From NCBI RefSeq assembly GCF_030506325.1, contig NZ_CP120683.1:2418001-2482000 (forward strand): DNA of 64,000 nucleotides. Reading direction: 5' to 3'. How positions within the stretch are numbered: position 1 is the stretch's first letter; the number at the start of each line of letters is the position of its first letter. Below the pieces are notes generated by a model. It saw only the letters and a program-made list of their open reading frames with translations, was not told where the DNA came from and searched no databases. The stretch is from Tunicatimonas pelagia. GTDB taxonomy: Bacteria > Bacteroidota > Bacteroidia > Cytophagales > Cyclobacteriaceae. The position numbers and the translations under genes are program-made. Below, piece by piece: positions 6,956 to 49,350 of this stretch.

Positions 6956-8425
6956 TTATTTCTTACGCCCTAATTGCTGAACCTTCTTCTCTAATTGCTC
7001 AATCTTTTTATTCTGCTCAATCAGATATAAAGTAAGCTCTTCTATTTTTTGCAATAGCCTAGCATCCATTTCACCTAAATCAATGCCTTTCTCCTTTACC
7101 TCCGATTCGGAAGGAATATCTGGTAAATGTTTATGCTTCTTAATAAACTTCTCTACTGAAAGGAGCGAAGGAAGCTGGTAAGTATCGTCGGTAAATACGA
7201 AATCCGGCCACCGCTGCCCTGAAGTAGCTCTAATAGACGAGACTAGTACATTTCCGCTAAGTACTATATTGCCCCCTCCCTCTTTCGTTATAGCGAAGTC
7301 ATTATTATTGTTCAAGCCCATCCAGGCTTTTCGCGAATTACTTCTTTTAAATTGGAAATACTGCCAAGAGTTATCGGAGTTGTTAAACGTCATAACTGCA
7401 TCCGAATTGGTGTTGACAGTGACACCCCCCTCGAAGGATACACTCCCCTTAACATCTAAAGTATGCGAAGGAGAAGAGGTACCTATTCCAACCCTTCCAT
7501 CCTTGGTAATTCGCATTCTTTCAGAAATATTTCTACCCGAGCCAGAAGCTGTAGAGAATGAAATATAGGGATTATGGCTGTTGCCCTCCCATAGTTTTAT
7601 TTGTGCTTTTGTTTGACCATCATTGGTAATCATAAAACCAACCTGTCGGTTTGAGCTACCTGAATTGAAGAGCCATGATCGCTCTTGTGAAACATCAACT
7701 CCGGCAACTATTTTAAGATCGTGAATTCTAGCATCTCCATTAACATGTAAAGCGTCGGTGGGATTGGTAGTTCCAATACCTATTCTTCCATTATGCTCAA
7801 TAACCATACGACTCGAACCAGCAGTTTTAAATAGAATGCGCTGATTATACTGTGCTCCGTAACTATTCATTGCTTCTAGAAGTAGAGTATTGCCCGTGCC
7901 ACTACCAATTCCGGTACTCTTATCGATCATCACCTGCCCATATCGTCTACCATCAGTCTGACGTATAAGCATTCCCTTCCCATCAACACCTTCTATTCGT
8001 ATATTGCCGTTATTAATTTCTAGCTTATCATTAGGTGAAGTGGTACCAATTCCTACTCTCCCATCTCCCGAGCCGTCAATGCGCATTACTTCTTGGTGTG
8101 AAAGGTTACGAGTATTAGTTATAAACTTAATAACACCTTCTCCCGAAGTATTACGCAAAAATAGATCATTATCCATAAAACCAACGAACCCGTTCAATCC
8201 ACTATCACTACCTCTACGGAATCGGATTAACCCCTGCCCATTTGTGGTACTTCCGACAGATAAATTTCCATTGATATCCAACGCGCTTCCTGCTACAGGA
8301 AGTGTGTTAATTCCAATTCGCCCCTGTGTATCTTGTACTTTAATTTCGGGAGTATACAATTGAGCGAAAGATTGGGGGATTAGTAATCTGAGGAGATAGA
8401 TTACTATAGCGACTTTTTTTAACAT
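6956..8425 (-). CDS. Secreted tail-fibre-like repeat protein with C-terminal coiled coil
   Basis: 489 residues from ATG 8425. I prefer this to an in-frame start 14 codons upstream because MLKKVAIVIYLLRLLIPQSF is a good signal peptide. Four copies of a GR(I/V)GI(G/N)T...P motif, each followed by a short hydrophobic D-x-(I/V) strand, are spaced through the first 350 residues. This is the pattern of tail-fibre-like or endosialidase-chaperone-like proteins common in Bacteroidota. The last 80 residues (VEKFIKKHKHLPDIPSESEV, then EMDARLLQKIEELTLYLIEQ) form the conserved C-terminal segment and a leucine-zipper-like coiled coil. I do not see a clear Ser/Lys S74 autoprotease dyad. It is the first gene of the minus-strand run ending in the SpvB-like gene; trimeric adhesin or fibre formation is plausible. 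Confidence 0.65.
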   Translation of the reverse strand: MLKKVAIVIYLLRLLIPQSFAQLYTPEIKVQDTQGRIGINTLPVAGSALDINGNLSVGSTTNGQGLIRFRRGSDSGLNGFVGFMDNDLFLRNTSGEGVIKFITNTRNLSHQEVMRIDGSGDGRVGIGTTSPNDKLEINNGNIRIEGVDGKGMLIRQTDGRRYGQVMIDKSTGIGSGTGNTLLLEAMNSYGAQYNQRILFKTAGSSRMVIEHNGRIGIGTTNPTDALHVNGDARIHDLKIVAGVDVSQERSWLFNSGSSNRQVGFMITNDGQTKAQIKLWEGNSHNPYISFSTASGSGRNISERMRITKDGRVGIGTSSPSHTLDVKGSVSFEGGVTVNTNSDAVMTFNNSDNSWQYFQFKRSNSRKAWMGLNNNNDFAITKEGGGNIVLSGNVLVSSIRATSGQRWPDFVFTDDTYQLPSLLSVEKFIKKHKHLPDIPSESEVKEKGIDLGEMDARLLQKIEELTLYLIEQNKKIEQLEKKVQQLGRKK

Positions 8426-8794
8426 CTGTTCAGGTGATTTGAAAAGTTGAAGGCGTAAAAATAGCAACCTAAAAGTAATTGGTGATAGATGCTAAAAACG
8501 GATTTCTTACACACGTACTTTTGTAACAAACTACAGATTTATCGCTACAAAATCAGCTGATACTTTGTTAACGAAATTCTTTCGCGTAGACCCACAATAT
8601 CTTTAAATACTACCGAACTTAGGTACTTCTTATTCAGGTTATCAGTCGTTCTGAATAGCTATAAAAACGTTTTTTCTCAAATGTTGAGAGAACAGCAGAG
8701 TGAGTGTTAATTCTACTCCCACTCACTCTGAGTGCCAAATTGTCTAATTTCATGTTTTGAGGGAAAGAGTAAGTTTTTTTAGCAAATGACTAAC
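8426..8794. other. Intergenic region between surface-protein operon and T2SS locus
   Basis: About 370 bases with no supported gene. It is AT-rich and holds one strong inverted repeat (8697-8729, listed separately) plus a small TCTCAA/TTGAGA hairpin just left of it. It probably contains the 3' end of the T2SS transcript and the promoter of the surface-protein operon. I could not place a confident -7/-33 pair. Confidence 0.5.
8697..8729 (-). terminator. Inverted repeat, possible terminator of the T2SS operon
   Basis: A perfect 10-base inverted repeat (AGAGTGAGTG at 8697-8706 and CACTCACTCT at 8720-8729) with a 13-base loop lies about 65 bases downstream of the last T2SS gene. No clear T-run follows on the minus strand, so intrinsic termination is uncertain; it may instead be an mRNA-stabilising 3' hairpin or an operator. 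Confidence 0.4.
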
Positions 8795-33951: not shown

Positions 33952-34026
33952 CGGGGCGTAGCGCAGTCCGGTTAGCGTACCTGCTTTGGGAGCAGGGGGT
34001 CGCAGGTTCGAATCCTGCCGCCCCGA
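33952..34026 (+). tRNA. tRNA-Pro (TGG)
   Basis: 75 bases with acceptor CGGGGCG / CGCCCCG, anticodon loop TTTGGGA (TGG at 33987-33989) and T-arm GCAGGTTCGAATCCTGC. CCA not encoded. It is the last core-genome gene before the metal-resistance and mobilisation island, so its 3' end is a plausible integration site. Confidence 0.97.
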
Positions 34027-34036
34027 CTTGATAATC

Positions 34037-34072: not shown

Positions 34073-34430
34073 ATTTGCAAGCTATTTGCAAGCATTTTTA
34101 GCTATCGCCAATGGTGTTGCACATAGCCTATAGCTCAAACATGAGCATATTTCTAAAGTAACTTCCTATCGTATAGTCTGGCGGAATGTCACTTGACGGA
34201 TTCCTGCTTTGCGTTGCTGTCGTCTAATATAGCGCTTGCTGTTCTTGGGTAAGATCGGCTTCCAGTGTTATCTCTTCCAATTCGATACTGGTAAATGGTA
34301 ATTCTAGTTGCTCAAGAACCTGGCTGACCACTTCAGAAAATCGATCTAAAATGGTAAAGAAGCATTTTAGTAAATCACACAATTGTATTTTAGCATTTTC
34401 TTAAATAATGAAATAAGCTATATTTGTAGT
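34073..34430. other. Junction between tRNA-Pro and the island, with a gene fragment
   Basis: No intact gene. The minus strand from about 34397 to 34224 contains a 58-codon frame without a start, including CDLLKCFFTILDRFSEVVSQ and ELEEITLEADLTQEQQALY before a stop. It reads like the C-terminal end of a real protein whose 5' part was lost. I do not recognise the family. A direct duplicate of GCAAGC (TTTGCAAGCTATTTGCAAGC) lies at 34075-34095. Confidence 0.4.
34419..34426 (+). promoter_or_regulatory. TAnnTTTG -7 element for the ArsR-family gene
   Basis: TATATTTG fits the Bacteroidota -7 consensus and ends 4 bases before the ATG at 34431, so the transcript would be nearly leaderless, or the ATG is reached through a very short leader. 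An autoregulated operator would be expected to overlap it, but no clear palindrome is visible. Confidence 0.45.
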
Positions 34431-34805
34431 ATGAAAGAAAATCAATGTATCCGGGTATTTGCTGCTCAACAACAAATTGAACGTTGTCAGCAACGTGTAG
34501 AACAAGTGAGCCCTTCGGTGACTGGCTTATCCAACGCTTTGGGACTAGCGGGGAACGAAGTGCGCTTAAACATTCTGTTTCTACTCGATGAAGAAGCCGA
34601 GTTATGCGTGTGTGATTTGAGCGATATTCTGGGCATGAAAATATCGGCTATCTCGCAGCACCTGCGTAAGCTCAAAGACGGGAAAATCGTCCAAACCAAG
34701 AAAATAGGCCAAACCGTCTTCTACCGCCTATCCCCGGAATACGCCGGGCTCTTTCGTCCCTTTTTCGCCATGATTGCCGATAACAAAACCATTGCTGTAT
34801 CATGA
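34431..34805 (+). CDS. ArsR/SmtB-family metal-responsive repressor
   Basis: 124 residues from ATG 34431. A winged helix-turn-helix (ALGLAGNEVRLNILFLLDEE, then ISAISQHLRKLKDGKIVQTKK) carries the metal-binding ELCVCDL motif in the recognition-helix region, as in ArsR/CadC proteins sensing As(III), Hg(II) or similar thiophilic metals. It heads the mercury-type cassette and overlaps merT by ATGA (34802-34805), so it likely represses its own operon until metal binds. An ArsR-type regulator instead of MerR is usual for Bacteroidota mercury operons as far as I recall. Confidence 0.9.
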   Translation: MKENQCIRVFAAQQQIERCQQRVEQVSPSVTGLSNALGLAGNEVRLNILFLLDEEAELCVCDLSDILGMKISAISQHLRKLKDGKIVQTKKIGQTVFYRLSPEYAGLFRPFFAMIADNKTIAVS

Positions 34806-35407
34806 AGACGACTAAAAATTCTGCCGCCAGCTTAGGGGTATTAACCGCTATCACCGCTTCGCTTTGCTGTATCACCCCAGTACTGGCTTTTGTGGCTGGT
34901 GCCAGTGGCGTAGCGGCCACCTTCTCGTGGCTAGAACCTTTTTGCCCGTATCTGATTGGATTGACCGTGGTTGTGTTGGGTGTTGCCTGGTATCAACAAC
35001 TCAAGCCCAGGAGCGCCGAAGAAATTGCCTGTGCCTGTGAAGACGATGAGCAGCCAAGCTTTTGGCAATCCAAAAAATTTCTGGTGATCGTTACCGTCGT
35101 AGCCGGAGCATTGCTCTTCTTCCCCATATACGCCGATGTCTTTTTTCCTAATACAGACCATCAAACCGTGATCGTTCAGGCATCTGATCTACAAGAAACG
35201 CAATTCGCGGTGCAGGGTATGACCTGTACCGGTTGCGAAGAGCATGTAAAGCATACGGCCTTACAACTGGATGGAGTGATAGAAGCCGAAGCCTCGTATG
35301 AGCAAGGCATTGCCCAGATCAAGTTTGATCCGACCCTAATTAATATAGAAGCGATTGACCAAGCTATTGAAGAAGAAACTGGATACCAAGTAGACCCATC
35401 ACAATAA
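34802..35407 (+). CDS. merT: Mercuric ion transporter MerT fused to a C-terminal HMA domain
   Basis: 201 residues. Three transmembrane helices with the vicinal cysteines of helix 1 in SLCCITPVLAF and a cytoplasmic CACEDD pair identify MerT. After the last helix (LFFPIYADVFF) comes a soluble heavy-metal-associated domain with MTCTGCEEHVKHTALQLDGV, giving a MerTP fusion in which the MerP function is built in. It moves Hg(II) into the cell for reduction. Here the expected reductase downstream is truncated, so uptake without detoxification would be harmful unless another reductase exists. Confidence 0.88.
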   Translation: MKTTKNSAASLGVLTAITASLCCITPVLAFVAGASGVAATFSWLEPFCPYLIGLTVVVLGVAWYQQLKPRSAEEIACACEDDEQPSFWQSKKFLVIVTVVAGALLFFPIYADVFFPNTDHQTVIVQASDLQETQFAVQGMTCTGCEEHVKHTALQLDGVIEAEASYEQGIAQIKFDPTLINIEAIDQAIEEETGYQVDPSQ

Positions 35408-35409
35408 GC

Positions 35410-35631
35410 ATGGAACAAGAAATTATTTTACAATCAACGCTTACCTGTCCGCAATGCGGACACCAGAAAGAAGAAACCATGCCCACCGATGCGTGTCAAT
35501 ATTTCTATGAATGTGAAAGCTGCGGGCAAGTCATAAAGCCCAAAGCCGGAGACTGCTGTGTGTATTGTTCTTACGGAACGGTCGCCTGCCCCCCGGTGCA
35601 AGAAAGCGGGAATACGGATTGTTGCTGCTAA
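35410..35631 (+). CDS. Small cysteine-rich protein of the GDCCVxC type
   Basis: 73 residues with eleven cysteines. A zinc-ribbon-like start (LTCPQCGHQKEE, CQYFYECESCG) is followed by the family motif AGDCCVYCSYGTVACPP and a terminal CCC. Proteins with this motif are found next to merT in Bacteroidota and other phyla; a metal-binding or trafficking role is presumed. Two bases separate it from merT, so it belongs to the same operon. Confidence 0.85.
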   Translation: MEQEIILQSTLTCPQCGHQKEETMPTDACQYFYECESCGQVIKPKAGDCCVYCSYGTVACPPVQESGNTDCCC

Positions 35632-35661
35632 TTTTTTTAATCTTTTAAAGGAGACTACCCC

Positions 35662-35727
35662 ACGAAAACCTATGGTGTGGTGGTGATTGGTTCTGGCATA
35701 GCCGGAATGACGATTGCCCAATATTTC
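35662..35727 (+). pseudogene. 5' stub of an FAD/NAD(P)-dependent oxidoreductase (mercuric reductase-like)
   Basis: After a good Shine-Dalgarno (AAAGGAG, 35646-35652) the frame reads ACG-KTYGVVVIGSGIAGMTIAQY. This is the N-terminal dinucleotide-binding segment (GxGxxG) of the oxidoreductase normally following merT and the GDCC gene. Two defects are visible: ACG stands where ATG is expected, and homology stops after about 21 codons. The frame then runs into unrelated sequence, so the reductase has been cut off by recombination. This is the left border of the plasmid-like module. Confidence 0.7.
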
Positions 35728-35763
35728 TTGATTTTTTTTAGCTTTTCCTGTTATCTTATACTT

Positions 35764-36045
35764 ATGTATGTTGCCGTCCACAATGACCAGCCAAGACCCA
35801 GAGGGTTAGCATTTTCTAACGAAACCCGCCAAGCAGCATCAAGCATTATGCGTTGCAATGGTTTAAACAAGACCCGTAATCATATCTATTATCGCTTGTG
35901 CCATGAGCTTATCTGTATGGAAATGAGTAATCCCTATGCGGCACAAGATGACATGATAGAACGTGGTGTTGAGCGCGTAGTGAACTCCTACCGGCACCTC
36001 AAAGAAGTTGACCTCTACTTTTACGACTCTGCCCTTTATTCCTAA
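35764..36045 (+). CDS. Hypothetical protein at the island junction
   Basis: 93 residues if it starts at ATG 35764 (MYVAVHNDQPRPRGLAFSNE). The same frame is open upstream into the oxidoreductase stub, creating an artificial fusion. Three short conserved-looking blocks (RNHIYYRLCHELICMEMSNP, YAAQDDMIERGVERVVNSY, YRHLKEVDLYFYDSALYS) suggest a helical protein. No family recognised. An upstream TTG and a TATCTTAT sequence could form its promoter. Could be a small plasmid-encoded regulator. Confidence 0.5.
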   Translation: MYVAVHNDQPRPRGLAFSNETRQAASSIMRCNGLNKTRNHIYYRLCHELICMEMSNPYAAQDDMIERGVERVVNSYRHLKEVDLYFYDSALYS

Positions 36046-36622
36046 AACCGTCCTTTTGCCTACACCTTTAAAGTAAAGAACAGCTCTTTCCCTCTGTAAG
36101 CCTTAGATATTTTTTCAGGGATTAGGGGGATAGAGAGACATTGATTTGTGAGCAAGTCTCATAATGCGCGGCGGAGTGGCTGGTATTGCGTGTTGGCAAG
36201 CTGGCCCTGAAGCGCAGCGGAATAAACAAGCCAAGGCTTTGCGCGTAAGCTTTATGCCGAACGGTTCAGGGGGCGTGTCCGCCGCGCGTTATATCTTGCT
36301 GGCAAACAATGATCTTATCGTGCGGCGGGCTTTGGCTTAGGGATAGAGCGATATGTTTGAGACCGGAAGGGCCTTGCGCTTAGCATGTCGAGTAGCGACA
36401 GCCCGGCCCGCACACAGTAAGGGCAAGCTCCTCCCCTTAGTCTGGCATAGAATTTTTAGAAAAATCTAGAAATATATTGATTTTCTGGAATATCTAGAAA
36501 TTTCGGAAAAGCATATTTTTTTGCCCTTCAAAATCTTTTTTGCCAACTTTACTTCTGTCAATCGCTAGTGCGCGCAATTTTATTTCGGTTGATGAATGTT
36601 TCACCTTTTAAATTCTAACGAC
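36046..36622. other. Long non-coding region of the mobilisation module
   Basis: About 575 bases without a gene. The left part is ordinary; 36161-36413 holds two large fold-back structures (separate entry); 36440-36530 is very AT-rich with a direct repeat ATCTAGAAAT at 36464-36473 and 36492-36501, 28 bases apart. The combination of strong inverted repeats and AT-rich direct repeats upstream of the coupling-protein gene fits an oriT, an oriV or a structured RNA. Confidence 0.6.
36161..36413. other. Two adjacent large stem-loop domains, candidate structured RNA or oriT
   Basis: Domain I: 36161-36175 (ATAATGCGCGGCGGA) pairs with 36278-36292 (TCCGCCGCGCGTTAT), 15 bases with a single T:G position, enclosing about 100 bases. 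Inside it GCCCTGAA (36204-36211) can pair with TTCAGGGG (36265-36272), and AAGCC/GGCTT forms a small hairpin. Domain II: GTGCGG-CGGGCT (36320-36331) pairs with AGCCCG-GC-CCGCAC (36400-36413) with a two-base bulge and an internal GTCG...CGAC hairpin. Such extensive nested pairing in a non-coding GC-rich island within AT-rich flanks is unlikely by chance. Confidence 0.6.
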
Positions 36623-36939: not shown

Positions 36940-38394
36940 ATGAGAAAAAACAGATACTCAAAACGAAAAAAGTATGCCCAGCAGCCAAACCCCTTACATG
37001 AACCGCTACTGTCGTTTTCGCCTCAAGATCACTGGTCGCTTAAAGATGCTTTTGAGGGCACTCTGATTGTTGGTACCAATGGCTCAGGCAAGACCTCCGG
37101 TCCCGGCAAGCATATCGCGCTGCAATTCCTGCGCTTTGGGCTAGGTGGTCTTGTGTTGGTCTCGAAAAGAGATGAAGCCAATCTCTGGAAAACCTATTGC
37201 GCTAGCACTGGACGATTGGATGATCTTATTATCATGGAACCGGATGGTCCTCATGTCTTCAACTTCATAGATTATATCGGGCGCACTCAGGTTGGACCAG
37301 GTAGTGGTCTGGCAGCCAATGTGGCGGATGTCATCTACCAGATTGCCGGGACAGCCGGGCAGGGTCAGGATAACCGGGATGCATTCTGGCAGGGTGAGCA
37401 AACCAAAATCCTACTTAGTCCGATAGAGACTTTACTGTTGAGTGGCCAAGAGCTTACACCCAAAGCGATCTACGGTATTGTGGCATCGGCACCGGGATCG
37501 GAGGAAGACCTGCAATCAGAGAAATGGCGTAATGATTCTGCCTGTTACCAAGCCCTTCGTACCATTCGGTACAAGATAGAAAACGGTCTTCTCAGCGAAG
37601 AAGAGATTGAAGATTATAGAGTTTTGGAGTCTTATTGGCTCTATGAATATGCCCGCTTGCACGAAAAGACTCGGGGGATTGTTAGAGCAATGTTCTCTAA
37701 CTTCTTTACCGAGTTCAACCGCAGACCTAATCGGGCTTTGTTTTGCGATAAGACGACCATCACCCCCGAAGCTTGTTTCCAAGGGAAGGTCATTGTGGTG
37801 AACTTGCCGGTGCGAGTGTTTCACAAAGTTGGTGTTGTAGCACAGAAGCTTATGAAGCTGATGTTTCAACGCACTGCTGAGCAAACCGTTATAGAAGGGA
37901 AACCCCGTCTCCCGGCGTTTCTGTTTGGGGATGAATACCAGACCCTCTATTACGACTATGATCGTGAGTTTCAGGCCACGGCTCGTAGTAGCCATGTTGC
38001 AACTGTCTATCTTACCCAGAACCTGCCGAATACCTATGAGGCTGCTGGTGGGGCACAGATGGGAGAGAATAAGAGTAAAGCTCTTATAGCCAATCTTAAC
38101 ACTAAGTTCTTCCTGGCACAGGATGACCCGGTGACCAATGAATACGCTGCACGAATGATCGGACAGACCGTTTACTGGCGGCGCAATAAAGGGGCGTCCA
38201 TTGGTGAGAGCACTTCCCTATCGCACGGGTCATCCGAAACCTACGATTATAAGGTACGACCCGAAGAATTTCACGCGCTGCGAAATGGTGGTTCCCCTCA
38301 CAACTATGAGGTGGATGCCTATGTCACGCAGACGGGGCGCATCTTCAAGGCTAATGGCTCTAATGTACTCAAAGTCACCTTTTCCCAAGCATAA
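36940..38394 (+). CDS. Type IV coupling protein, VirD4/TraG family
   Basis: 484 residues from ATG 36940, chosen over an upstream ATG because the 40-residue extension is of different composition. Walker A is GTNGSGKT, preceded by DAFEGTLIVG. Walker B-like LPAFLFGDEYQTLYYD and the TraG-type block FLAQDDPVTNEYAARMIG then TVYWRRNKG are visible. No N-terminal transmembrane pair is present, unlike canonical VirD4, so the protein may be soluble or depend on the membrane protein encoded next. It would bring the relaxase-DNA complex to a mating channel. No channel genes are in the window. Confidence 0.85.
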   Translation: MRKNRYSKRKKYAQQPNPLHEPLLSFSPQDHWSLKDAFEGTLIVGTNGSGKTSGPGKHIALQFLRFGLGGLVLVSKRDEANLWKTYCASTGRLDDLIIMEPDGPHVFNFIDYIGRTQVGPGSGLAANVADVIYQIAGTAGQGQDNRDAFWQGEQTKILLSPIETLLLSGQELTPKAIYGIVASAPGSEEDLQSEKWRNDSACYQALRTIRYKIENGLLSEEEIEDYRVLESYWLYEYARLHEKTRGIVRAMFSNFFTEFNRRPNRALFCDKTTITPEACFQGKVIVVNLPVRVFHKVGVVAQKLMKLMFQRTAEQTVIEGKPRLPAFLFGDEYQTLYYDYDREFQATARSSHVATVYLTQNLPNTYEAAGGAQMGENKSKALIANLNTKFFLAQDDPVTNEYAARMIGQTVYWRRNKGASIGESTSLSHGSSETYDYKVRPEEFHALRNGGSPHNYEVDAYVTQTGRIFKANGSNVLKVTFSQA

Positions 38395-40497: not shown

Positions 40498-43233
40498 ATG
40501 ATCCGTATTATTGTCTCTACCTCCGCCGAGGCGGCCAAAAGCTATTTTCAGGATGGCTTGTCCAAATCGGATTATTACTTGAACGACCAGGAACTCCCCG
40601 CCCATTGGCACGGCAAGGCCGCTGCGATGCTGGGATTGTCCGGGCCGGTTCAGACTGAGCAATTCTATGCACTGGCCGATAACCGCCACCCCGAAACGGG
40701 CAAAGCGATTACGCCGGGCGGCAATAGGCCGAACCGCCGGGTTGGCTATGACATTAACTTCCATTGTCCCAAGTCGGTTTCTGTCCTGCATGCGCTGGGC
40801 AACGACAGCCGGATACTGGATGCCTTTCAGGACAGCGTGGATGCGACCATGCAGGATATGGAAGCTGATATGCAAACCCGTGTCCGAGTCAAGGGGCAAT
40901 ACGATGACCGGGAAACGGGCAATATGGTCTGGGCACGCTTTACCCACCAGACCGCCCGTCCGACCAAAGAAGCCCCACCAGACCCGCACCTGCACGCCCA
41001 TTGCTATGCGTTCAATATGACCTTTGATAAAGAAGAGCAACGCTTCAAGGCGGGGCAGTTTGTCACTCTTAAGAAAGACGGGATGTATTACCAAGCCCTG
41101 TTTCACAAGCGCCTCGCCGACAAACTTCAGGCGATGGGCTATACCATCCGTAAAACCAAAAGCGCGTTTGAAGTCGATGAAGTGTCAAAGGAAGCCACTG
41201 CGCTGTTTTCCAAGCGTACCAACCATATCGGGCAGGTGGCGAAAGACAAAGGCATTACCAAAAAGAGTGAACTGGACAAGCTTGGGGCATATACCCGCGC
41301 GGCCAAGCAAAAGGGACTGACCATGCAGGACTTACGCAAAATCTGGCGCAGTCAACTGAAGTCCAATCCTATTCGTAAAGGGCAAGGCGGGAAAGGGGCA
41401 CCCATCAAAACACCCAAGCAATGCGTCACCCATGCCATCCATCATACCTTTGAACGCCTGTCAGTGATGAACGAACGCAAGCTAAAACAGGAAGCGTTGC
41501 GTCATGGGCTAGGCAGTCGTGAAGTGACCATTGAGGCGTTAGACAGGCAGTTTGCCGAGGATGAGCGGCTGGTACGCCTTGATGAGGCAAAGGATGCACT
41601 TTGTACTACGCCGGAAGTACTGGCTGAAGAACAGGAAATGGTTGACCGGGCAATGGATGGGCAAGGCATTTTCAATCCAGTCTCTCGCTTGCCCCGTGGA
41701 CACTGGCAGAACAAAAAACTGAACGCCGAACAAAAGCAGGCGGTCAATCGCGTCCTAATGAGCCGTGACCGGGTCACCCTTATTCAGGGACGGGCGGGGA
41801 CGGGTAAGACCACCATGATTAAGGAAGCCATTGCCGGGTTCAACGAACATCGTAAACGGGTCTATACCTTCGCCCCGACGGCGGATGCCGCCCGGGGTAT
41901 CCTCCGGCAGGAAGGCTTTAAAGAAGCGGATACCATTGCCAAGTTGCTCACCGATAAAGACCTGCACAAGCAGATTAAGCATCAGGTCGTATGGATTGAT
42001 GAGGCCGGATTGATGGGGTCGCGCGATATGGTGCGGATTTTACGACTGGCCGAGGAACAGGATTGCCGTCTTATCTTGTCCGGCGATACCAGGCAGCATC
42101 GTTCGGTCGCCCGTGGTGATGCGTTCCGGGTGTTACAGGATGTGGCCGGGCTCAAAGCCACGGGAACGAAGACCATTTACCGCCAACAACAAAAGGACTA
42201 CCGCGAGGTGGTAGAAGCCTTATCGGAAGGGCGTACCGGTCCGGCTTTTTCCCAGCTTGACCGGATGGGAGCCATTCGGGAAATCGGCACCGATAATGTA
42301 ATAGAGGAACTAACAAACAGCTATCTGGAAACCACCAAACGGGGCAAGTCTGCACTGGTGATTTCACCGACAATTGCCGAACGGGATAAGGTCAATGCCC
42401 ATATCCGCGACAGTCTTCGGGAAAAGGGGCGGTTGGGACGGAAAAGCAGAACCCTGACGCGCTTGCAATCCCTGCAATGGACGGAAGCCGAAAAAGCCGA
42501 TAGTCGCAACTATGTTCCCGGTCACGTCATCCAGACGCATGCCAATATATCCAAGCATTTTGTCAAGGGAAGGAAGTTTCAGGTGGTGAAGGTCAAAGAA
42601 AAAGCAGTCCTCACCCGAAATGAAAAAGGACGTCTCAAGGCGTTGCCACTCGATAAGGCCGCTCGGTTTGATGTCTATGAGCGCTCCAAGCGGGATATTG
42701 CCAAACGTGACCTTATCCGTATTACTAAAAACGGCTCGGATAAAAACAAGGAACGGCTGGATAACGGCATGATGCTCGAAGTTATTGGCTTGACCAAAGA
42801 CGGCCATATCCGGGCGCAAACGGCCAGTACCAGTAAAAAGGCCAAAAACCTCAAGCAATACCTTATTCCTCGATCCCATGAAAACTGGGACTATGCCTAT
42901 TGCCAGACCTCTTATGCCGCGCAGGGTAAAACGGTGGATAGGGTCTTTATCCATCAACCGGCGGCTACCTTTCCGGCCACCAACCAGGAACAGGTCTATG
43001 TGTCCGTTTCACGCGGACGGGAAGCCGTCACGATTTATACCGATGATAAGGACGAACTGCGGCAAATGGCGCAGCAATCCAGCAGGCGCATGGCGGCACT
43101 GGAAGTGCCGGTGCCGGACTACGGGCATGAGCGAACGCCGGAACCCGAACGGCAGCCGGAGATAGAAAAAGAAGCTTCAATAGATATACCACCACCAAAA
43201 TCGAAAAATTATGGATACGACCTCTCAATTTAG
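40498..43233 (+). CDS. MobF-family relaxase with helicase domain (TrwC/TraI-like)
   Basis: 911 residues. The N-terminal relaxase has the paired tyrosines SDYYLNDQE (about 24-28), WHGKAAAMLGLSGPV, and the metal-binding three-His motif PDPHLHAHCY (about 162-170). The C-terminal part is an SF1 helicase with Walker A GRAGTGKT (about 431-438), Walker B WIDEAG, GDTRQHRSVARGDAF, and the late motifs YCQTSYAAQGKT and YVSVSRGRE. It nicks oriT and unwinds the strand for transfer. MobF relaxases are typical of proteobacterial plasmids and seem rare in Bacteroidota. Codon composition is more GC-rich than in the flanking chromosome. Confidence 0.93.
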   Translation: MIRIIVSTSAEAAKSYFQDGLSKSDYYLNDQELPAHWHGKAAAMLGLSGPVQTEQFYALADNRHPETGKAITPGGNRPNRRVGYDINFHCPKSVSVLHALGNDSRILDAFQDSVDATMQDMEADMQTRVRVKGQYDDRETGNMVWARFTHQTARPTKEAPPDPHLHAHCYAFNMTFDKEEQRFKAGQFVTLKKDGMYYQALFHKRLADKLQAMGYTIRKTKSAFEVDEVSKEATALFSKRTNHIGQVAKDKGITKKSELDKLGAYTRAAKQKGLTMQDLRKIWRSQLKSNPIRKGQGGKGAPIKTPKQCVTHAIHHTFERLSVMNERKLKQEALRHGLGSREVTIEALDRQFAEDERLVRLDEAKDALCTTPEVLAEEQEMVDRAMDGQGIFNPVSRLPRGHWQNKKLNAEQKQAVNRVLMSRDRVTLIQGRAGTGKTTMIKEAIAGFNEHRKRVYTFAPTADAARGILRQEGFKEADTIAKLLTDKDLHKQIKHQVVWIDEAGLMGSRDMVRILRLAEEQDCRLILSGDTRQHRSVARGDAFRVLQDVAGLKATGTKTIYRQQQKDYREVVEALSEGRTGPAFSQLDRMGAIREIGTDNVIEELTNSYLETTKRGKSALVISPTIAERDKVNAHIRDSLREKGRLGRKSRTLTRLQSLQWTEAEKADSRNYVPGHVIQTHANISKHFVKGRKFQVVKVKEKAVLTRNEKGRLKALPLDKAARFDVYERSKRDIAKRDLIRITKNGSDKNKERLDNGMMLEVIGLTKDGHIRAQTASTSKKAKNLKQYLIPRSHENWDYAYCQTSYAAQGKTVDRVFIHQPAATFPATNQEQVYVSVSRGREAVTIYTDDKDELRQMAQQSSRRMAALEVPVPDYGHERTPEPERQPEIEKEASIDIPPPKSKNYGYDLSI

Positions 43234-47462: not shown

Positions 47463-47963
47463 TTAAAGCATCCCCTCATCGGCAAAAGACCGATAGCTGT
47501 CTTGGGTTAAAATGATATGATCGAGAAGGGGTAAATCCAGTAGGATGCCAATCTCTTTCAGTTTTCGGGTGAGCTTAATATCGGCCTCACTGGGGCTAAG
47601 TTGGCCCGATGGGTGATTGTGCGCGGCAATCAACGCCGCCGCATGAGCTTTCAACGCGGCCCCAAAGATCACCTTGGGGTCGGCTACGCACCCGGCCTGT
47701 CCGCCTTGTGATACCGTTCTTAATCCCAGAACCCGGTTGCTGCGGTCAAGAAAGATGGTTTTGAACTCTTCGACATACTGGATGCGTCCTTTTTTCCAGC
47801 GACTGCGTAGTACCGCCACAGCACTCTCGGAATCGGTAATTTTAAACCGGTCACAGTCTTTGACCTTGCGGGAATAGGATACTTTGATTTCAGCGATGCG
47901 ACTGGGAAAGACAATAGTTCGCTGGCCGCCATCGGGGCGGTAGTGTTGTTCTGAAGCACTCAT
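47463..47963 (-). CDS. RadC/JAB-domain DNA repair-like protein
   Basis: 166 residues. The JAB1/MPN-type metalloprotease-like motif is intact: LIAAHNHPSGQLSPSEAD (His-x-His ... Ser ... Asp), with an upstream conserved FKTIFLDRSNRVLGLRTVSQ and downstream LLDHIILTQDSYRSF. RadC-family proteins lacking the N-terminal HhH are common on plasmids and genomic islands; the biochemical role is not settled. It starts divergently from the fic gene, with region C between. Confidence 0.88.
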   Translation of the reverse strand: MSASEQHYRPDGGQRTIVFPSRIAEIKVSYSRKVKDCDRFKITDSESAVAVLRSRWKKGRIQYVEEFKTIFLDRSNRVLGLRTVSQGGQAGCVADPKVIFGAALKAHAAALIAAHNHPSGQLSPSEADIKLTRKLKEIGILLDLPLLDHIILTQDSYRSFADEGML

Positions 47964-48160
47964 AGAATTTAGGCTTTAGGGTGATACATGAATTTTGGGT
48001 CTCACCCTGCGGTTTGGCACGACTAGAGCAAACAGGAAACGGAATACCGGACGAAAGCGAAGCGAAAGGAGGATATGCCGTCCCTTTTGCGGATGTCGGG
48101 ACAACACCGCGACCTTTACCCAAAAACGCATGGACACCTTGCGCGTGGGGGTCGTAACTT
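47964..48160. other. Hairpin-rich intergenic region C
   Basis: No gene. AGGGTGA (47978-47984) pairs with TCACCCT (48002-48008); GTTTG (48012-48016) with CAAAC (48029-48033); further small GC hairpins follow. It would be the 5' leader of the RadC/JAB gene on the minus strand. Similar in style, though not in sequence, to regions at 36161-36413 and 46022-46273. Confidence 0.45.
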
Positions 48161-48166
48161 ACTATT

Positions 48167-48237
48167 GAGCCGAATAATCTTGACAATCGGCTCATTAATT
48201 TGATATATTTGAGCCGAATAAAGGATATAATCGGCTC
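48167..48237 (+). promoter_or_regulatory. fic promoter embedded in a duplicated palindromic operator
   Basis: Two copies of an operator-like palindrome, GAGCCGA-N13-TCGGCTC, occur at 48167-48193 and 48211-48237. The half-sites and the 27-base length are identical in both, 44 bases apart. The promoter lies between them: TTGACA (48180-48185) inside copy 1, an 18-base spacer, and TATATTTG (48204-48211), which ends on copy 2. The right half of copy 2 abuts the ATG at 48238. A dimeric repressor bound to both sites would block transcription. Confidence 0.75.
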
Positions 48238-49350
48238 ATGGCGTATAATTGGCAACTTCCGGACTGGCCGGACTTTACTTACTCAATAGACGAAGTTGAA
48301 GATAAACTCTTTGACTTTGCTCAACGGGTCGGGCGGGTTAGTGGCGTATTAGCCGGTTTGCCGGACACAACCCAAACCGAAGCGGTGATTGACCTGATGG
48401 TGTCCGAAGCGGTGAAGACCTCCGAGATTGAAGGGGAATATCTTAGCCGTCAGGATGTGATGTCCTCCATCCGTAATAATCTGGGGCTAAACCCATCGGT
48501 TGAGAATGTATCGGACAAACGCGCCGAAGGGGCGGCCGAACTGATGATTGATGTGCGTGACAGCTACGCCGAACCGCTGACCCAAGACAAGCTCTTTGCC
48601 TGGCACCGGATGTTGATGAAAGGCAATCGGCGGATTGCCATAGGGGAATGGCGTAGCCATGAAGAACCGATGCAGGTGGTCTCCGGGGCGTTGGGGAAAG
48701 AGAAAGTCCACTATGAAGCTCCGCCGTCTTCACTAGTACCTGCCGAGATGGCGCAGTTTATCCGATGGTTTAACGAGACCGGGCCGGGTGGTAAAAATGA
48801 GATCAAAAAGCCCATTCTGCATTCAGCCATAGCCCATCTCTATTTTGAAACCATTCATCCGTTTGAAGATGGCAATGGCCGGATAGGCCGGGCGATCTCG
48901 GAAAAAGCCCTGTCCCAACATATCAACCGCCCGATCCTGTTGAGCCTGTCCCGCTCAATAGAAGCCAATAAGAATGCCTATTACGGGGCACTTCAAAGAG
49001 CCCAGCAATCCAACGAGGTTACCAACTGGATCATCTACTTTGTGGATATGGTGCTGGATGCCCAGACCCAAGCCGAGGAGTTGATCGATTTTACCTTAAA
49101 AAAGACCAGGTTCTTTGATCGCTTCAAAAACAGTCTCAATGAACGTCAACTTAAAGCCATCCGCCGGATGCTGGACGAAGGGCCGAAAGGGTTTGAGGGC
49201 GGCATGAGTGCCAAAAAGTACATCTCCATTACCCATACCTCTAAAGCAACTGCCACCCGTGATATGCAGGACTTGGTAGAACAGGGTGTATTTGTCCCGG
49301 TCGGCGGCGGCGGGCGTAGTACGCGCTACGATCTAAAACTAGATCAATAA
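48238..49350 (+). CDS. Fic family protein with DUF4172 domain and inhibitory motif
   Basis: 370 residues. An N-terminal DUF4172-like domain (MAYNWQLPDWPDFTYSIDEV) includes the inhibitory helix motif TSEIEG (about 61-66), matching [S/T]xxxE[G/N] of class II Fic proteins. The Fic core follows with HPFEDGNGRIGR (about 207-218), the AMP-transfer motif. A C-terminal winged helix-like segment (YISITHTSKATATRDMQDLV, EQGVFVPVGGGGRSTRY) resembles a DNA-binding domain, so the protein may itself bind its operator. Expected activity: AMPylation or deAMPylation of a target, auto-inhibited by the Glu. No separate antitoxin is needed for class II. Confidence 0.92.
   Translation: MAYNWQLPDWPDFTYSIDEVEDKLFDFAQRVGRVSGVLAGLPDTTQTEAVIDLMVSEAVKTSEIEGEYLSRQDVMSSIRNNLGLNPSVENVSDKRAEGAAELMIDVRDSYAEPLTQDKLFAWHRMLMKGNRRIAIGEWRSHEEPMQVVSGALGKEKVHYEAPPSSLVPAEMAQFIRWFNETGPGGKNEIKKPILHSAIAHLYFETIHPFEDGNGRIGRAISEKALSQHINRPILLSLSRSIEANKNAYYGALQRAQQSNEVTNWIIYFVDMVLDAQTQAEELIDFTLKKTRFFDRFKNSLNERQLKAIRRMLDEGPKGFEGGMSAKKYISITHTSKATATRDMQDLVEQGVFVPVGGGGRSTRYDLKLDQ

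Follow-up and report, generated by a model that had tools for sequence, protein, structure and literature searches.

One-Strand Hairpins before Anti-Restriction Genes of Bacteroidota Mobile DNA: A Gene-Less Copy in Tunicatimonas pelagia as a Putative Single-Strand Promoter

A folded block in the window (the whole stretch of Tunicatimonas pelagia DNA analysed, 64,000 nt) contains two domains. The first probably belongs to a hairpin family of the Bacteroidota, whose members fold on one strand of conjugative or mobilisable DNA and are predicted to act as single-strand promoters; we put the probability of this reading at roughly 60%. Judged by sequence, domain 1 is a divergent, gene-less copy of a hairpin that is sited before the anti-restriction genes of mobile elements in many Bacteroidota, and we read it as a putative single-strand promoter or priming site. 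An earlier note on this DNA had offered a structured RNA, an origin of transfer (oriT) or a recombination site as explanations. The structure and the link to conjugation that it described have held, but none of its three named readings fits best.

Structure of the Folded Block

The outer stem of domain 1 pairs 36161–36175 with 36278–36292 on the + strand over 15 nt (14 Watson-Crick pairs and one T.G), as had been described, and 102 nt lie between its arms, in agreement with the earlier figure of about 100. The inner pairing of CCCTGAA at 36205 with TTCAGGG at 36265 was likewise present. The conserved apex, CGGAATAAAC...GCTTTATGCCG (36204–36273, + strand), matched the covariance model R1 (described below) with 60.3 bits, being itself a training member of that model. 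The second domain starts 28 nt past the first, with GTGCGGCGGGCT at 36320 and AGCCCGGCCCGCAC at 36400–36413. The block is GC-rich (GC 0.577 versus 0.437 in the left flank and 0.349 in the right flank) and contains no ORF of at least 60 aa. The two tandem fold-back domains of the earlier description are therefore both real, but they are not of the same type and differ in kind.

The domain 1 hairpin is long and imperfect, and at about 36139–36311 (+ strand) it exceeds what had been described. When domain 1 (36120–36330) was folded as single-stranded DNA, its z-score was −4.3, with 0 of 200 shuffles as good. Folded as RNA, the whole 311-nt block had a z-score of −1.5 for the + strand, with 9 of 100 shuffles doing as well, and of −2.4 for the − strand; the better result of the − strand against its shuffles speaks against the single-strand promoter reading.

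Sister Copy and Conserved Module

A search with the block across 295 genomes of the taxonomic family identified 12, its own included, that match part of it; apart from its own, only one of them matches most of it. This one, L015, is a same-genus metagenome contig (CAKZYJ010000163.1, uncultured Flammeovirgaceae) with 83% identity over window positions 36100–36434. Homology to L015 spans 35782–36434 of the window and stops at 36434; downstream of the module, the window carries traG and L015 a cysteine-desulfurase-like ORF (identified by eye). The block had been placed upstream of the coupling-protein gene. That gene does follow here, but given the homology stop and the different downstream gene, the module is not tied to it. 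On this comparison, the conserved unit is a 93-codon ORF with domain 1 and domain 2.

The 93-codon ORF (35764–36045, + strand) lies beside the block, upstream of domain 1, and was overlooked in the earlier note. It shows 77% amino acid identity in L015, with 16, 8 and 28 changes at the three codon positions. Extended by 12 codons at its start, it had no Pfam match, and a search of named plasmids with its last 87 codons gave no match. A scan of genome contigs for this ORF confirmed one of 33 candidate stretches, which was CAKZYJ010000163.1 itself, and a scan of viral contigs confirmed none of 36.

The comparison with L015 covered 59 pairs predicted on the + strand of domain 1, of which 55 are kept: 47 were unchanged, 6 were changed on one side and 2 on both, while 3 were broken and 1 was gapped. 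Both double changes fall in the outer stem. All six one-sided changes lead to G.T on the + strand, and since 7 of the changed pairs involve G.T and none gives A.C, the + strand is the folding strand of domain 1. The earlier note had looked to compensatory changes in both stems for support, and to conservation limited to a reading frame for refutation. Compensatory changes do occur in domain 1, both in L015 (the 2 double changes) and across the family; domain 2 is nearly invariant and offered nothing informative.

The main rival to a gene-less single-strand promoter or priming site is a structured RNA of the + strand, in which domain 1 (with domain 2) would form the 3′ part of the 93-aa ORF transcript or an independent small RNA. 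In its favour, the co-conserved ORF lies on the + strand, which the G.T and A.C counts above identify as the folding strand; in addition, domain 2 resembles Flavo-1, an sRNA entry in Rfam. However, the + strand RNA fold of the whole block is weak (z −1.5), no Rfam family matches at the block, and the family's folding strand is antisense to the adjoining gene, as set out below. We consider this RNA unlikely.

A tRNA-Pro gene (33952–34027, + strand) precedes the module by 1.7 kb, and a tRNA gene is found about 0.1 kb before it in L015. A tRNA gene on the same side in both genomes would suit an integration or recombination site (att or an attC-like folded site), the third reading of the earlier note. 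Yet most family copies sit at a fixed distance upstream of start codons and not between cassettes, and no long repeat of the tRNA end was present elsewhere in the window. Nothing else was found that points to recombination, and such a site is scarcely credible here.

Between tRNA-Pro and the module, a mercury-type operon (34383–35725) comprises an ArsR-like regulator (by eye), MerT with an HMA domain and a small cysteine-rich ORF. The gene that follows it, a flavoprotein start, is cut short at the beginning of the ORF-hairpin module. Elsewhere, mer-like ORFs adjoin hairpin copies in two other loci, L155 and L162 (by eye), and a Pontibacter plasmid (L172) has them next to radC/ardC. A 16-nt inverted repeat (35721–35736 and 36460–36475, 94%) flanks the module in AT-rich DNA and may be due to chance.

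Extent and Covariation of the Hairpin Family

A multicopy element came to light through a weak match to the apex in a different genus (L010); it was present in 13 of 40 genomes of that genus, with up to 6 matches per genome. The covariance model R1 was built from the window, L015 and 18 copies from the genus of L010. Within the order, it gave 123 matches in 56 of 390 genomes and 22 of 130 genera (E ≤ 0.01). A second model, R2, built from 67 rows, found the family in 29 of 326 genomes and 21 of 151 genera of the phylum (E ≤ 0.001). The window's own genome holds three further matches outside the window, two of them with R1 E-values of 0.004 and 0.009. Neither domain 1 nor the copies in five family loci gave a match in Rfam covariance scans.

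The membership of domain 1 was also assessed with a profile from which the window and L015 rows had been removed, its remaining rows having been aligned with R1. This profile matched domain 1 at 36214–36261 with 30.4 bits (E 7e-9) and the L015 copy with 28.9 bits, and the best of 20 shuffled windows reached 8.4 bits. In the family alignment (A5; 67 rows fitted to R1, 4 of which are opposite-strand echoes of copies already included), 97.1% of cells were paired and double changes occurred in 10 of 13 pairs. None of 500 shuffles was as high, and slid controls reached 36–52%. The copies are related by descent, so these counts are not independent events.

Three weak BLAST matches to the block lay, by eye, in unrelated AT-rich DNA and were dropped; viral pattern scans returned 23 and 1 stretches, which were unrelated by eye. 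No match to the block was present in the named plasmids searched. Eight regions from radC/ardC-bearing plasmids, selected among 18 and 3079 matching records, showed no R1 match better than E 0.83, and across ten upstream regions in those plasmids the template strand folded better in 6; both results speak against the single-strand promoter reading. The Bacteroides ovatus plasmid NZ_CP081918 has template-side hairpins with TAnnTTTG before radC and ardA (7721–7982 and 8500–8733 of the extracted region, L178), which differ in sequence from the family and have no R1 match. The promoter-like layout may thus be wider than the sequence family, or the plasmids examined may not have it.

Neighbouring Genes and Folding Strand

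The positions of adjoining genes were analysed in 62 copies: domain 1 of the window, L015, 19 copies from one earlier locus set, 40 of the 123 R1 matches, picked by the analyst, and the second copy of the window. An ORF of at least 75 aa on the opposite strand starts 35–95 nt to the left of the hairpin in 42 of the 62, compared with 2 of 62 in the mirror control, and 35 of those 42 start at 59–66 nt. The remaining 20 copies have no ORF start in the 35–95 nt range, which argues against the single-strand promoter reading. Most of the adjoining ORFs are radC- or ardC-like by sequence. Pfam analysis of representative genes identified RadC, ArdC, SSB, DUF932 and DUF6943, with no match for two further gene types; the SSB and DUF932 genes sit further from the hairpin, at about 120 nt. 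In four loci (L138, L139, L087 and L088), hairpin copies without a gene at the usual place were seen, which may be remnants, and an IS200-like ORF (by eye) lies near the one in L088.

Among 60 distinct copies, DNA energies favoured the folding strand over its complement in 57, and RNA parameters did so in 50. A held-out set was formed by 16 of the 20 loci from the R2 phylum search, which come from other taxonomic families, the remaining 4 being from genomes already used. Here, the folding strand was lower in DNA energy in all 16, and a gene lay to the left within 140 nt in 11 of 16 (mirror, 1 of 16). As the adjoining ORF is on the strand opposite to the fold, the gene is read from the folding strand as its template, and the hairpin is therefore not an mRNA leader.

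A double-stranded operator or cruciform, where a repressor or nucleoid protein binds the palindrome and controls the adjoining gene, would also suit the fixed distance to the start codon. Double-stranded binding would, however, favour neither strand for folding, in contrast to the 57 of 60 and 16 of 16 observed, and the −7 box described below sits on the strand reading away from the gene. This possibility is regarded as improbable.

The window contains a second copy of the hairpin apex in the canonical position (48025–48093, + strand; R1 19.6 bits, E 0.002). The start codon of a radC-like JAB gene (47463–47963, − strand; PF04002, E 5e-36) is 62 nt from it, and the DNA fold of 47960–48240 gave z −5.6. 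This copy therefore lies upstream of an anti-defence gene (radC), and domain 1 does not.

Promoter Elements in the Right Arm

Promoters of the Bacteroidota carry TTTG at −33 and TAnnTTTG at −7, and in Flavobacterium the −33 element is weak (PMC6847099). Of 76 distinct copies, 24 had an exact TAnnTTTG in the right arm, against an average of 3.2 and at most 9 in dinucleotide shuffles. The exact box was lacking in the other 52, including the radC copy of the window, where none was found in the 60 nt after 48025–48093; this counts against the single-strand promoter reading. The looser pattern TANHTT, picked after looking, occurred at one offset in 52 of 76 copies (shuffles: mean 5.4, maximum 12). 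Of the 24 exact boxes, 14 had a TTG 17–23 nt ahead of them, at 22 nt in nine cases (shuffles: mean 4.5, maximum 11), and the 10 boxes without it are again evidence to the contrary.

In the double-stranded reading direction of the box, a gene was present within 300 nt in 8 of 24 copies, and a gene was present on the left in 19 of 24. Only on a folded single strand do the boxes point into the gene, because the right arm is then the non-template strand. The paired fraction was 0.36 in the box versus 0.65 in the stretch above it across the 18 copies folded, a modest gap.

Domain 1 has a −7-like box, TATCTTGC (36292–36299, + strand), which is TAnnTTTG minus one T, lies near the usual family offset and has identical letters in L015. 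There is no TTG 17–23 nt before this box and no gene on the template side of domain 1, both of which weigh against the single-strand promoter reading. A leftward transcript from domain 1 would run antisense to the 93-aa ORF.

Strand Clustering and Conjugation Context

Of 30 pairs of neighbouring copies within 60 kb of each other, 29 shared a strand, among them the pair in the window. A search for PF03432 relaxases in 15 genomes found them in 11. In all 7 cases within 10 kb of such a relaxase, the copy and the relaxase gene lay on opposite strands, as they did in 17 of the 18 within 50 kb, where neighbours are not independent. In one locus, L209, the hairpin, radC, primase-like and MobC-like ORFs and the relaxase follow in series (names partly by eye), the hairpin, radC and relaxase lying within 4 kb; in another, L210, an ardC copy adjoins mob genes (names partly by eye). 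The folding strand would, on our interpretation, be the transferred strand. In the window, both copies are on the + strand, as is the MobF (TrwC) relaxase gene (40498–43233; PF08751, E 5e-67), which is the reverse of the PF03432 cases and argues against the single-strand promoter reading.

The earlier note had also suggested an oriT for the MobF relaxase. Such sites often contain hairpins, and the block lies about 0.5 kb before the gene of the TraG/VirD4-type coupling protein (36940–38394, + strand; PF12696, E 1e-8; start codon by eye) and 4 kb before the relaxase gene. In L015, by contrast, the block is followed by the cysteine-desulfurase-like ORF, on a contig too short to exclude a relaxase, and the family recurs several times per genome before anti-restriction genes. 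An oriT is thus very unlikely. Separately, two 22-nt AT-rich direct repeats with TCTAGA, spaced 28 nt apart at 36452–36501, form a candidate protein-binding or oriT-type site before traG.

Proposed Mechanism and Relation to Known Systems

In the mechanism we propose for the single-strand promoter, the hairpin would fold once the strand becomes single, its two arms giving a double-stranded stretch. The 3′ arm would be the non-template strand and carry the Bacteroidota promoter elements, with the −7 box at the stem base, and the strand leading away 5′ of the hairpin would be the template. RNA polymerase with the main sigma factor of the Bacteroidota could then start RNA there before a second strand exists. 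At typical copies, such as 48025–48093, this RNA would be the mRNA of radC, ardC, ssb and similar genes. At domain 1, it would be a primer or a gene-less transcript, the gene having been lost or never there. The odds are about even for the broader proposal that conjugative and mobilisable elements of the Bacteroidota own a phylum-wide class of single-stranded DNA promoters before early anti-restriction genes, where the stem base keeps the −7 box open for the divergent sigma factor of the phylum, and that gene-less domain 1 primes the second strand.

Compared by layout, the family is similar to Frpo/ssi of the F plasmid and its relatives, a one-strand hairpin mimicking a double-stranded promoter before SSB and anti-defence genes of mobile elements (PMC11541004). 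As in Frpo/ssi, the family and domain 1 show a conserved hairpin on one defined strand. The same paper describes how Frpo mimics double-stranded DNA, so that RNA polymerase reads leading-region genes off the incoming strand, and how plasmids with Frpo-type promoters express anti-defence genes early from incoming single-stranded DNA (PMC11541004). The family differs in its phylum and in having Bacteroidota promoter elements instead of −35/−10, and domain 1 differs in having no gene. The main text of PMC11541004 has 0 matches for 'Bacteroid', and literature searches combining Bacteroidota or Bacteroides with Frpo or single-strand promoters returned no such promoters in the phylum, which is no proof of absence.

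A likeness was also noted to STAXI (RF01728), a structured motif near antirestriction and SSB genes that is suspected to act as single-stranded DNA (PMC2864571); the family is likewise structured and near antirestriction and SSB genes. The radC motif (RF01754) is listed for Proteobacteria (PMC2864571). Scans of the window and of five family loci gave no covariance match to RF01728 or RF01754.

If the single-strand promoter reading is correct, the hairpin family would suggest how islands of Bacteroidota express RadC, ArdC and SSB on arrival, and the hairpin would serve as a marker for early-entry regions and for the transferred strand. Further candidate anti-restriction genes would include DUF932, DUF6943 and perhaps the 93-aa ORF.

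Domain 2

Domain 2 (36320–36413, + strand) is a separate stem-loop with a Flavo-1-like core at 36340–36404, GGG-A-UR-GA-GC / GC-GA-YA-G-CCC. The patch 36339–36411 recurs alone, in intergenic positions, in two other genera (eight loci), and R3, a model of domain 2, identified it in 20 of 291 genomes of the order, with up to 17 copies each. Covariation in domain 2 is uninformative because the sequences hardly vary. A terminator was considered for the relatives of domain 2 and rejected, as no T-run follows the hairpin (by eye).

The core shares with Flavo-1 (RF01705) short helices and A.G and GA-type internal loops in the same order (by eye), together with many copies per genome, and a relationship between the two is plausible on these sequence features. 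A difference is the 2x2 internal loop, compared with 3x3 in Flavo-1. Domain 2 falls short of the gathering cut-off of RF01705; with E up to 5, the Flavo-1 model matched neither domain 2 nor any of ten loci, among them eight with domain-2 relatives. In the converse direction, ten Flavo-1 loci were scanned with R3, which matched one of them (E 0.18). As part of the overall explanation, and sharing its standing, domain 2 is probably a separate Flavo-1-like element that travels with domain 1 in two genomes. A domain-2-like element occurs 10–17 times per genome in several genomes (e.g., L186, L187, L189 and L190), scattered and in both orientations, and Flavo-1 is likewise repeated, scattered and in both orientations in other genomes.
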